This document shows positions 28,535-48,454 of a DNA stretch of 64,000 nt, in pieces. Position numbers and translations under genes: made by a program. The notes beneath the pieces were generated by a model. The model did not search any database, was not told the DNA's origin, and saw nothing but the letters and a program-made list of their open reading frames with translations. Origin of the DNA: Mesorhizobium shangrilense (GTDB taxonomy: Bacteria; Pseudomonadota; Alphaproteobacteria; Rhizobiales; Rhizobiaceae); assembly GCF_040537815.1 (NCBI RefSeq), contig NZ_JBEWSZ010000001.1, forward strand, positions 2,604,001-2,668,000. The letters are read 5' to 3'. The first letter of the stretch is position 1, and every line of letters starts with the position of its first letter.

Positions 28535-28549
28535 GTTCTTGATTTGTTC
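28535..28549 (+). promoter_or_regulatory. LexA-type SOS box upstream of the radical SAM gene
   Basis: GTTC, seven bases (T-rich), GTTC: an exact match to the direct-repeat LexA operator of alphaproteobacteria. It lies 26 bases before the ATG at 28575 and overlaps the likely promoter core (TTGATT at 28539). The divergent glycosyltransferase start is 60 bases to the other side. Confidence 0.75.
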
Positions 28550-28574
28550 TCATTTGCAAAATAGGAATAGTTTC

Positions 28575-29780
28575 ATGAACAGAGCGATTCGACAGATTGC
28601 CGACAGTCCTTGGGAGAGGGCGAAGATGGAACAGATCGTGCGCGCGGACATTGCAGCTTTCGGGGCTGGAAGAGCCGAGATGGCAAATGCGATGATCGAG
28701 CAGAGCGGTGTGCGTGTTCGCCCTGACCGCAACCGTGGACGGTCGGCGGGCATCAATCCATCCGGCAGGTTCGAGCCGGTCAGCCGGCATGTCTTCGATG
28801 ATGGCTGGAACTCGCTGGAGGAATTGCCGCCGTTCAAGACCGAAGTGCAGGTGGAGAAGCCGCGCACAATCATCACCCGCAACGAATCGCCGGACATCTC
28901 CTTCGACCGTTCGATCAACCCGTACCGTGGTTGCGAGCATGGCTGCGTCTACTGCTTTGCCCGGCCGACGCACAGTTTCATGGGCCTGTCGCCGGGTCTG
29001 GATTTCGAATCGAAGCTGTTCGCCAAGCCGGATGCGGCGCGGCTGCTCGACAGGGAATTGTCGAAGGACGGCTATCAGCCGCGCACCATCGCCATCGGCA
29101 CCAACACCGACCCCTACCAGCCGATCGAGAAGCAGTACCGGATCATGCGCGAGATCCTCGAAGTGCTGGAGGCACGAGGCCATCCGGTCGGCATTGTCAC
29201 CAAATCCGCTTTGGTAACGCGCGACATCGACATCCTGTCGCGCATGGCCGAGCGCGGTCTTGCCAAGGTGGCGTTGTCGGTCACTACAATGGATCGCATG
29301 CTGGCACGCACGATGGAGCCGCGCGCGTCGACGCCGACCAAGCGGCTTGAAGCGATCCGGCAGCTTTCTGATGCCGGCATCCCGGCTTCGGTGATGGTCG
29401 CACCCATCATCCCCGGCCTCACCGATCAGGAGATGGAGCGTATCCTGGACTCGGCGCGAGCAGCGGGAGCGCTGGAGGCCGGCTATGTGGTGCTGCGCCT
29501 GCCGCTGGAGGTCAGCCCGATCTTCAAGGACTGGCTGCTGCGCCACTATCCGGACCGCTATCGCCACGTCATGTCGCTGATCCGTTCGATGCGCGACGGC
29601 AAGGATTACGATTCGGAATGGGGCAAACGCATGAAAGGTGCCGGCCCCTATGCCTGGCAGATCGGGCGGCGTTTCGAGATCACCGCCAAGCGGCTTGGCC
29701 TCAATGTCGAACGGCGCACGCTTCGGACCGACCAGTTCGTTGCCGCCGGAAAAGACCAGGTGCAACTGACGCTACTTTGA
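28575..29780 (+). CDS. PA0069-family (SplB-like) radical SAM protein
   Basis: A 401-residue radical SAM protein of the PA0069/spore-photoproduct-lyase-related group. The 4Fe-4S motif is CEHGCVYC (C-x3-C-x2-C) near residue 120 in NPYRGCEHGCVYCFARPTH; SAM-binding segments follow (AIGTNTDPYQPIEK, VTKSALVTRDIDIL, LSVTTMD, PRASTPTKRLEAI, APIIPGLTDQE). SplB repairs UV photoproducts in spores; the role of this group in non-spore-formers is unknown. A LexA box lies before the start, so an ATG at 28521, upstream of it, is rejected; 28575 has an AGGAA site, and 28626 with GAGAGGG is an alternative. rnhB follows on the same strand. Confidence 0.87.
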   Translation: MNRAIRQIADSPWERAKMEQIVRADIAAFGAGRAEMANAMIEQSGVRVRPDRNRGRSAGINPSGRFEPVSRHVFDDGWNSLEELPPFKTEVQVEKPRTIITRNESPDISFDRSINPYRGCEHGCVYCFARPTHSFMGLSPGLDFESKLFAKPDAARLLDRELSKDGYQPRTIAIGTNTDPYQPIEKQYRIMREILEVLEARGHPVGIVTKSALVTRDIDILSRMAERGLAKVALSVTTMDRMLARTMEPRASTPTKRLEAIRQLSDAGIPASVMVAPIIPGLTDQEMERILDSARAAGALEAGYVVLRLPLEVSPIFKDWLLRHYPDRYRHVMSLIRSMRDGKDYDSEWGKRMKGAGPYAWQIGRRFEITAKRLGLNVERRTLRTDQFVAAGKDQVQLTLL

Positions 29781-30629: not shown

Positions 30630-30649
30630 GTTGAACGGCTGAGCACCTA

Positions 30650-30805
30650 ATCTCCCCCCTCGGGGGGAGATGTCGCCAAAGGCGACAGAAGGGGTCCTCT
30701 CAACCAGCTCGACGCGCGCCTCTTGGCGACGAAAGATCAGCTCGGCGCTTCACGCGCGGCGCCCCCCTCTGGCCTGCCGGCCATCTCCCCCTCGAGGGGG
30801 GAGAT
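30650..30805. repeat. paired intergenic palindromes (rhizobial repeat)
   Basis: Two palindromic units, 30650-30694 and 30762-30805, lie in opposite orientation around a 67-base core. Each contains ATCTCCCCC(C)TCG...GGGGGAGAT; the outer parts also show related C/G tracts. The same units occur at 46579-46723 in this window, so this is a dispersed repeat. It fills most of the 270-base gap between rnhB and the atp operon. Confidence 0.8.
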
Positions 30806-30846
30806 AGGCGCTCAGCCGCCTTCGCGGATCTCCACTGCCACACAAC

Positions 30847-47787: not shown

Positions 47788-48399
47788 TTACATCGCGCTC
47801 AGCGGCCAAGATTCCGGGAAAACGTATTTCTTGAGTCCGCGCAAGCTGTGCACAAGAAAGAACTCCCGTGCAACAAAGCTGATCGCGTCCATAGGCTGTT
47901 GCGGGATCAGTTTTTGGTCGTAGGCAAGCGTCAAATGCGGAACGAAACCATTCGATGCTTTGAGGCCCTCGCATAACATTTCAGCTCCCAACTTCCTGCT
48001 CAACTCACAAACCGGTCCATCGTCGGCGAGAAGCACGAAGGGATGCTTGGCCGGGCTGCCCCTTGTCGCCGGGCGGCCGGGAAAGCTCCTGAAATGGCGA
48101 AAGCTGACCTCGAAGTCAGGCATCGCAATGCGCCGCCCCGATCGGGCGGCTGCAAAGATGGTTTTAGTTCGCAGTCTCTTGTAATCACCCACGTGCTGCA
48201 GGCTCACGTGAAAACGGTGAGGCAACAGACGGGAGCCGGTTATCCCCCACCGGCTGCACAGCCGGCTTTGACAATCAGCAAACCGCGAATAGTCCTTCTG
48301 CTGCAAGAACAAGCCATAGAATACACGATCCGGTCGTTTAGGCCGCCATGGTGGCTCCGGAATTCCGAAATCGAATTCGCCTTGCAGATACATAGGCAT
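47788..48399 (-). CDS. 2'-5' RNA ligase family (2H phosphoesterase) protein
   Basis: A 203-residue protein with the two H-x-T/S-x motifs of the 2H phosphoesterase superfamily: HVSLQHVG near residue 65 and HLTLAYD near residue 158. In LigT/ThpR and related enzymes these histidines carry out cyclic phosphodiester hydrolysis or RNA end chemistry. The gene has its own start 90 bases after the aldehyde dehydrogenase gene, and a LexA-type box lies 41 bases upstream, so it looks SOS-controlled. The substrate, RNA or nucleotide, is unknown. Confidence 0.85.
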   Translation of the reverse strand: MPMYLQGEFDFGIPEPPWRPKRPDRVFYGLFLQQKDYSRFADCQSRLCSRWGITGSRLLPHRFHVSLQHVGDYKRLRTKTIFAAARSGRRIAMPDFEVSFRHFRSFPGRPATRGSPAKHPFVLLADDGPVCELSRKLGAEMLCEGLKASNGFVPHLTLAYDQKLIPQQPMDAISFVAREFFLVHSLRGLKKYVFPESWPLSAM

Positions 48400-48439: not shown

Positions 48440-48454
48440 GAACAAAACAGGAAC
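48440..48454 (-). promoter_or_regulatory. LexA-type SOS box upstream of the 2H phosphoesterase gene
   Basis: On the coding (minus) strand this reads GTTC, seven bases (CTGTTTT), GTTC, an exact alphaproteobacterial LexA motif, ending 41 bases before the ATG at 48399. It falls in the only gap between the ALDH gene and this gene. Confidence 0.75.

Follow-up and report, generated by a model that had tools for sequence, protein, structure and literature searches.

Does the radical S-adenosylmethionine (SAM) gene that follows a LexA-type box in Mesorhizobium shangrilense belong to the SOS regulon, and if so, on what might its product act? The locus lies in a stretch of 64,000 nucleotides, here called the window (NCBI RefSeq assembly GCF_040537815.1, contig NZ_JBEWSZ010000001.1, positions 2,604,001 to 2,668,000 of the forward strand); coordinates below are window positions unless stated otherwise. 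A first-pass annotation had read an exact GTTC-N7-GTTC box before a gene related to SplB, the spore photoproduct lyase (SPL), and had proposed SOS control and a DNA-damage function. Comparison of orthologous loci indicates that the box is almost certainly a LexA site and that DNA damage very probably turns the gene on. Its product belongs to the PA0069 family of radical SAM proteins and ends in a short conserved motif that strongly suggests docking on the sliding clamp, DnaN. Taken together, these observations make it probable that the gene encodes an SOS-induced, clamp-docked radical SAM enzyme acting on damaged DNA, where LexA binding at this box, clamp binding and DNA as the substrate are steps that we infer from sequence comparison. 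The features on which the argument turns are as follows.

28535 to 28549, plus strand: LexA box GTTC-N7-GTTC, GTTCTTGATTTGTTC, an exact match kept in 107 of 111 family loci
28539 to 28544, plus strand: likely -35 element TTGATT, within the box, 17 bases from TAGGAAT; TTG 99-100% conserved in 107 boxed family loci
28544 to 28549, plus strand: alternative -35 element TTGTTC, within the box, paired with a -10 element TAGTTT at 28568 to 28573
28562 to 28568, plus strand: likely -10 element TAGGAAT, at +27 to +33 counting from the start of the box, 77-94% conserved in the same 107 loci
28626 to 29780, plus strand: PA0069-family radical SAM gene, probable coding sequence, 384 amino acids (401 from the first-pass start at 28575)
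28932 to 28955, plus strand: CxxxCxxC [4Fe-4S] motif CEHGCVYC; the protein has no cysteines besides these three (120, 124 and 127, numbered from 28575)
29097 to 29111, plus strand: GTNTD loop without cysteine, aligned, by way of a distant relative, with the loop that holds the SPL catalytic residue Cys140
29763 to 29777, plus strand: QLTLL, a motif resembling sliding-clamp-binding motifs, in a C-terminal tail predicted to be disordered

The exact box stands where the first-pass annotation had placed it. A lone exact match is weak evidence, since the whole genome holds 201 GTTCN7GTTC sites against 236 of the reversed control pattern and hence shows no enrichment; the window itself has six such sites against 1.96 expected, a count reached in 1 of 100 shuffles. 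A form with a T-rich right half, GTTCN4WTTGTTC, occurs at 12 genome sites against 2 for its control, and the 12 include the boxes before dinB and uvrA (both named by eye from their translations) and before the radical SAM gene. The genome has a single lexA gene above the model cut-off, and an exact box lies in reverse orientation 75 bases upstream of the stretch matched by that model.

Stretches upstream of orthologues were scanned for box patterns alongside matched control patterns. In the window's own family, 111 of 115 matching genomes were counted; G084 (gene in two pieces), G107 (internal stops), G086 (near a contig start) and G004 were left out, and one truncated locus, L159, was scored as a miss. 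GTTCN7GTTC precedes the gene in 107 of these 111 loci (reversed control, 3). Elsewhere in the class we took 89 of 167 matching genomes (the genome of the window aside), comprising the 29 best-scoring loci and 60 chosen mostly one per family, and found the box in 76 (reversed control, 2); one of these loci, L179, could be admitted only after the motif was relaxed and changed the count from 75 of 88 to 76 of 89. An additional alphaproteobacterial set at the level of the order, from which three repeats were dropped, gave 24 of 24 (reversed control, 2). Over a wider upstream stretch the reversed control reached 4 of 111 loci in the family and 3 of 88 in the class, and altered spacers (N5, N6, N8, N9 and N10) matched 6-8 of 111 and 0-6 of 88. 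Because the compared loci are related by descent they do not count as independent trials, but the retention of the box before orthologues, against controls of 3, 2 and 2, places it far beyond chance, and a chance box was rejected on that ground. The conservation that the first-pass annotation had proposed as its check is thus present.

Beyond the class, the box before the gene changes type. In other classes of the phylum (40 loci from 49 genomes above the cut-off), CTGTN8ACAG was found in 27 loci, its control in none, and GTTCN7GTTC in none of the 40. GAACN4GTTC precedes the gene in 71 of 80 loci from Streptomyces and one Microtetraspora, these being the best 80 of at least 588, and in 23 of 26 loci from other Actinomycetota, with a control count of zero in both sets. 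The second set came from a draw of 149 genomes, 66 of which matched; of 30 loci taken, three lacked a recognisable motif and one repeated a Streptomyces genome. Matches to the wrong type were few: GTTCN7GTTC in 3 of the 80 and 1 of the 26 actinomycetotal loci, and GAACN4GTTC in 1 of 111 family and 1 of 89 other alphaproteobacterial loci. One pattern for the PafBC-type damage motif had no match in the 27 Actinomycetota loci scanned. We take the three types to be the LexA boxes of their respective lineages, so that, judged by sequence, the gene carries the box type matched to each lineage. For Caulobacter, GTTCN7GTTC is given in the part of PMC4211646 available. One protein from another class, L272, is nested within the alphaproteobacterial proteins of the tree (the wider clade has a support of 0.965, the exact place one of 0.124), and its locus bears the CTGT-type box despite that placement, as expected if SOS control had been regained after transfer.

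SOS control of this gene is not new; it has been in print since 2012. The accessible text of PMC3323433 predicts LexA control of a gene called splB in alpha- and betaproteobacteria and presents this as the earliest evidence that a photoreactivation enzyme is under SOS regulation; SOS control also appears in print under "SplB COG1533" (PMC8565304), and SplB-like genes are placed in operons with ImuB-C in what could be seen of PMC3765255. In Streptomyces venezuelae, the consulted portion of PMC9380542 lists vnz_31145, "Radical SAM protein", with an RNA-seq fold change of 19.97 under mitomycin C, a LexA chromatin immunoprecipitation value of 1.31 and a box, TCGACCGTTCGCTC, at a stated position of -61. 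That sequence occurs in 2 of our 80 Streptomyces-type loci, in both immediately upstream of a gene of the Rv2578c family and next to a perfect GAACN4GTTC; because it adjoins that gene in both loci that hold it, vnz_31145 very probably denotes the Rv2578c-family gene. In the available parts of three alphaproteobacterial papers on LexA or DNA damage (PMC6473078, PMC12907096 and PMC4211646), neither splB nor photolyase nor radical SAM was found to be mentioned. With its box conserved, the box replaced by another type in other lineages and, subject to the inferred identity of vnz_31145, an experiment in Streptomyces, the earlier proposal of SOS control gains strong support, and SOS control would in turn imply a DNA-damage role for the enzyme.

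How LexA would act can be read from the promoter. Under the first reading, TTGATT and TAGGAAT form the promoter, and among 75 other alphaproteobacterial loci TAnnnT lies 16-18 bases past the corresponding TTGNNN in 43. A second reading pairs TTGTTC at +9 with a TAnnnT that follows after 18 bases, at +33; it holds for 55 of the 107 family loci and for none of the other 75. Within the family the data do not choose between the two; the -35 element is inside the box in both, which bears out the first-pass statement that the box overlaps the likely promoter, and bound LexA would therefore block it. The start codon proposed at the same time, at 28575 and 25 bases past the box, is probably wrong. The reading frame is open as far as the equivalent position in 79 of 107 boxed family loci, an open in-frame start is found there in 11, and an in-frame NTGGA start occurs further on in 63. 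Thirty of these loci have a start of the type (A/G)TGGAAC(A/C)GAT, whose equivalent in the window, ATG at 28626, lies 76 bases past the box and close to the equivalent of the annotated start in S. meliloti; this ATG is probably the true start.

The enzyme is a member of the PA0069 family (NF033668, 577.2 bits, E 1.1e-173, cut-off 360). At an E value of 0.001 or less, the family model matched 115 of 121 family genomes, 168 of 289 in the class and 150 of 299 in the phylum, and 114, 161 and 144 genomes, respectively, scored above the cut-off. All six family genomes with no match measure 1.1-1.9 Mb, a 2.0-Mb genome (G004) retains the gene, and in a 1.5-Mb family genome (G107) the gene looks decayed, with five TGA, one TAG and two TAA codons within the match; the small size of the six and the decayed copy suggest gene loss with genome reduction. 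A dedicated phage copy was considered and dropped, the 23 matching phage records covering just 41-64% of the query. A viral scan with the window protein alone returned no close phage copy; among the 80 viral loci listed, four look like close copies (L408-L410 and L468), each cut by a contig end.

The relation to SPL that the first-pass annotation had drawn stands by predicted fold and fails by membership. The modelled fold of the window protein is nearest to that of SPL and can be called SPL-like; in the fold lists SPL leads the next family by about 4 Z units, and RlmN, MiaB and SuiB also appear there. The SPL model TIGR04070 gave 16.3 bits against a cut-off of 400, and Pfam matched Radical_SAM and left the SPL family PF20903 at 15.5 bits, below its cut-off of 27. 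In solved SPL, C140 is the catalytic hydrogen-donor cysteine. Cysteine was found in none of 362 relatives at the five positions before the aspartate that span the aligned catalytic position, and just after that aspartate in 97, mostly from Actinomycetota (ten proteins with no clear TDxYQ match are left out of both counts). Identity as a true SPL was rejected on the TIGR04070 score and the missing cysteine. None of 61 family genomes searched has a protein above the TIGR04070 cut-off, and five weak matches lie inside PA0069 genes.

The C terminus points to where the enzyme may act. In an alignment of 36 proteins from two phyla, chosen by hand (L212, whose frame runs off the locus, was dropped after selection), the invariant columns number 32; Q397 and L400 are among them, within the last five residues and after a linker of variable length. 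The motif lies within the last nine residues in 357 of 368 distinct complete proteins, compared with 0.7-3.8% of shuffled tails and less than 1% of internal windows. Its positions hold Q; mostly L or M (also G or Q in other classes); S, A, T, D or others; L; and L or F. The sliding-clamp consensus is QL[SD]LF, and the residues chosen in the tail match it position by position. Residues 381-401 have predicted local distance difference test values below 50, so that the clamp-like pentapeptide would be a conserved one in a tail predicted to be disordered. Distant relatives differ: the motif was found in 1 of 73 viral radical SAM relatives among the matches listed (7 of the 80 loci had no complete frame) and, by eye, in none of four bacterial ones (Selenomonas, Paenibacillus, Runella and Staphylococcus), an archaeal one having no clear motif, and it is present in a Legionella PA0069 protein and a Gemmatirosa relative. 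Clamp docking on DnaN through the tail is thus strongly suggested, and docking would suggest action on DNA at replication forks. A clamp tail on radical SAM or SplB-like enzymes is unstated in the titles and abstract openings found, subscription journals being mostly uncovered, and within the literature searched we regard this tail as new for the enzyme group.

The following course of events would fit. LexA on its box would cover the -35 element and keep the promoter off; DNA damage would activate RecA, LexA would cleave itself and the enzyme would be made. With its SPL-like fold and one iron-sulphur cluster it would carry out radical chemistry, and the last five residues of its flexible tail would dock it on the DnaN clamp, which would carry it to forks or repair patches, where a damaged base or a DNA crosslink would be the target. 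That a large bacterial group possesses an SOS-induced, clamp-docked enzyme that repairs a lesion by a radical route without the cysteine hydrogen donor of SPL is a more tentative and somewhat doubtful proposition; on that reading the lesion may be a crosslink, within or between strands, or an adduct that forks encounter. If true, it would amount to a separate pathway of direct-reversal repair guided by the clamp, and with a clamp-like tail across two phyla, "radical SAM, function unknown" would become a candidate for fork-linked DNA repair.

Several observations weigh against SOS control and clamp docking, in addition to the lack of genome-wide enrichment of the exact motif. The exact box is absent from 4 of 111 family, 13 of 89 other alphaproteobacterial and 13 of 40 other-class loci, and from 9 of 80 and 3 of 26 actinomycetotal ones; 15 of the last 26 loci also fall below the Rv2578c model cut-off, with 11 above it. 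Two further other-class proteins that nest among alphaproteobacterial ones, L249 and L258, have neither box type, and the -61 given for vnz_31145 in the accessible text of PMC9380542 disagrees with the distance in its relatives. As for the tail, 11 of 368 proteins do not have the motif among their last nine residues, although four of these have a similar pentapeptide a few residues inward and two (L164 and L204) have hexapeptide-like endings; position 2 in other classes is often M, G or Q in place of L.

Three other explanations deserve weight. The box could be a chance match or a non-LexA element kept for the sake of its -35 region, which it does contain and which might be conserved in its own right, and the unenriched exact motif would agree with this. 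We consider it extremely improbable: both GTTC halves are kept while the intervening +7 to +9 vary, and in other lineages the same gene has another type of LexA box, with controls at or near zero. More of a case can be made for an SOS-controlled enzyme that modifies RNA, a nucleotide or a protein and has a tail that binds not DnaN but another partner. The targets of radical SAM enzymes are diverse, and the RNA- and peptide-modifying RlmN, MiaB and SuiB are in the fold lists; the distance of SPL above the next listed family, the fit of the tail to the clamp consensus and the DNA repair genes that adjoin some distant relatives and one close relative nevertheless make this unlikely.

The remaining explanation is that the protein is a true SPL, a photoreactivation-like enzyme with spore photoproduct or ordinary ultraviolet dimers as the lesions it repairs, as PMC3323433 suggested for splB. 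The same gene is very probably meant there, because the neighbourhood of the S. meliloti orthologue resembles that of the window and no true SPL exceeds the cut-off in the 61 family genomes. Both have a LexA box before an SplB-like gene, in species that include S. meliloti, Agrobacterium and Brucella (PMC3323433 and PMC8565304, as far as available). The scores on TIGR04070 and PF20903, the cluster cysteines as the only ones in the window protein, the lack of cysteine before the aspartate in all relatives scored and the statement in the text seen of PMC4929162 that spore photoproduct exists only in ultraviolet-irradiated spores leave this explanation quite improbable. What was called a photolyase in the available text of PMC3323433 is here a PA0069-family protein with no SPL cysteine and with a clamp-like tail, and its control is traced to other classes and to Actinomycetota through three box types, which suggests that the photolyase label is right in regulon and wrong in chemistry. 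The literature covered, in the parts available, names no proven substrate of SplB-like genes outside spores.

The preferred reading, a clamp-docked SOS enzyme acting on DNA, sets the protein among several partly similar systems. It shares with SPL (TIGR04070; PDB 4fhc and others) the predicted fold, the CxxxCxxC motif and a nucleic-acid repair setting, but falls below the curated cut-off and lacks cysteine at the C140 position. The Rv2578c family of Actinomycetota (NF038135, 231.2 bits against a cut-off of 430, so that the window protein is not a member), which by inference includes vnz_31145, has the upstream LexA box, a C-terminal Q-x-x-L-L tail and the same core; it differs in its GAACN4GTTC box, in sequence (33-36% identical to the window protein within the 36-sequence alignment) and in gaps that replace part of the PA0069 C-terminal region. 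DinB, UmuC and ImuB are LexA-controlled polymerases or polymerase relatives with a short clamp-binding motif, alike in SOS control and motif, whereas the window protein belongs to the radical SAM enzymes. In PMC4929162, archaeal SplB-like proteins encoded beside NreB are likewise linked to a possible sliding-clamp binder; there the neighbouring protein has a less clear PCNA-binding motif, and here the motif is on the enzyme itself and would be for DnaN.

Around the gene, the first-pass annotation had pointed to rnhB, which does lie downstream, at 153 bases; nothing found ties it to the box, and as an operon partner it was dropped for want of supporting evidence. One S. meliloti record has a transposase gene on the corresponding side and leaves rnhB unlisted, in a gene table known to be incomplete. 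Relatives elsewhere adjoin a DNA glycosylase and an Ada-type protein (a Staphylococcus saprophyticus plasmid, L405), a UvrD-type helicase (Runella, L404) and PolX (a Legionella plasmid, L407). Inspection by eye also showed, at 30640 to 30830 between rnhB and the ATP synthase genes, an intergenic region that resembles a palindrome and whose repeated arms are rich in runs of C and G.

Two other boxes were encountered in the same genome. On contig 2 (L019, contig positions 749509 to 749523), a strong box, GTTCTCATTTTGTTC, immediately precedes an unnamed gene roughly 250-265 codons long, which is a further SOS candidate. In the window, a second LexA-type box, GTTCCTGTTTTGTTC, at 48440 to 48454 on the minus strand, precedes a gene of the 2'-5' RNA ligase superfamily (47788 to 48399, minus strand; PF13563, 31.9 bits, cut-off 27). 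This gene has matches in 12 of 81 family genomes, its own included, those in the others being just 27-86% identical to the window copy, and GTTCN7GTTC lies within about 280 bases upstream in 11 of the 12 (10 of the 11 others), a count made without a control pattern.
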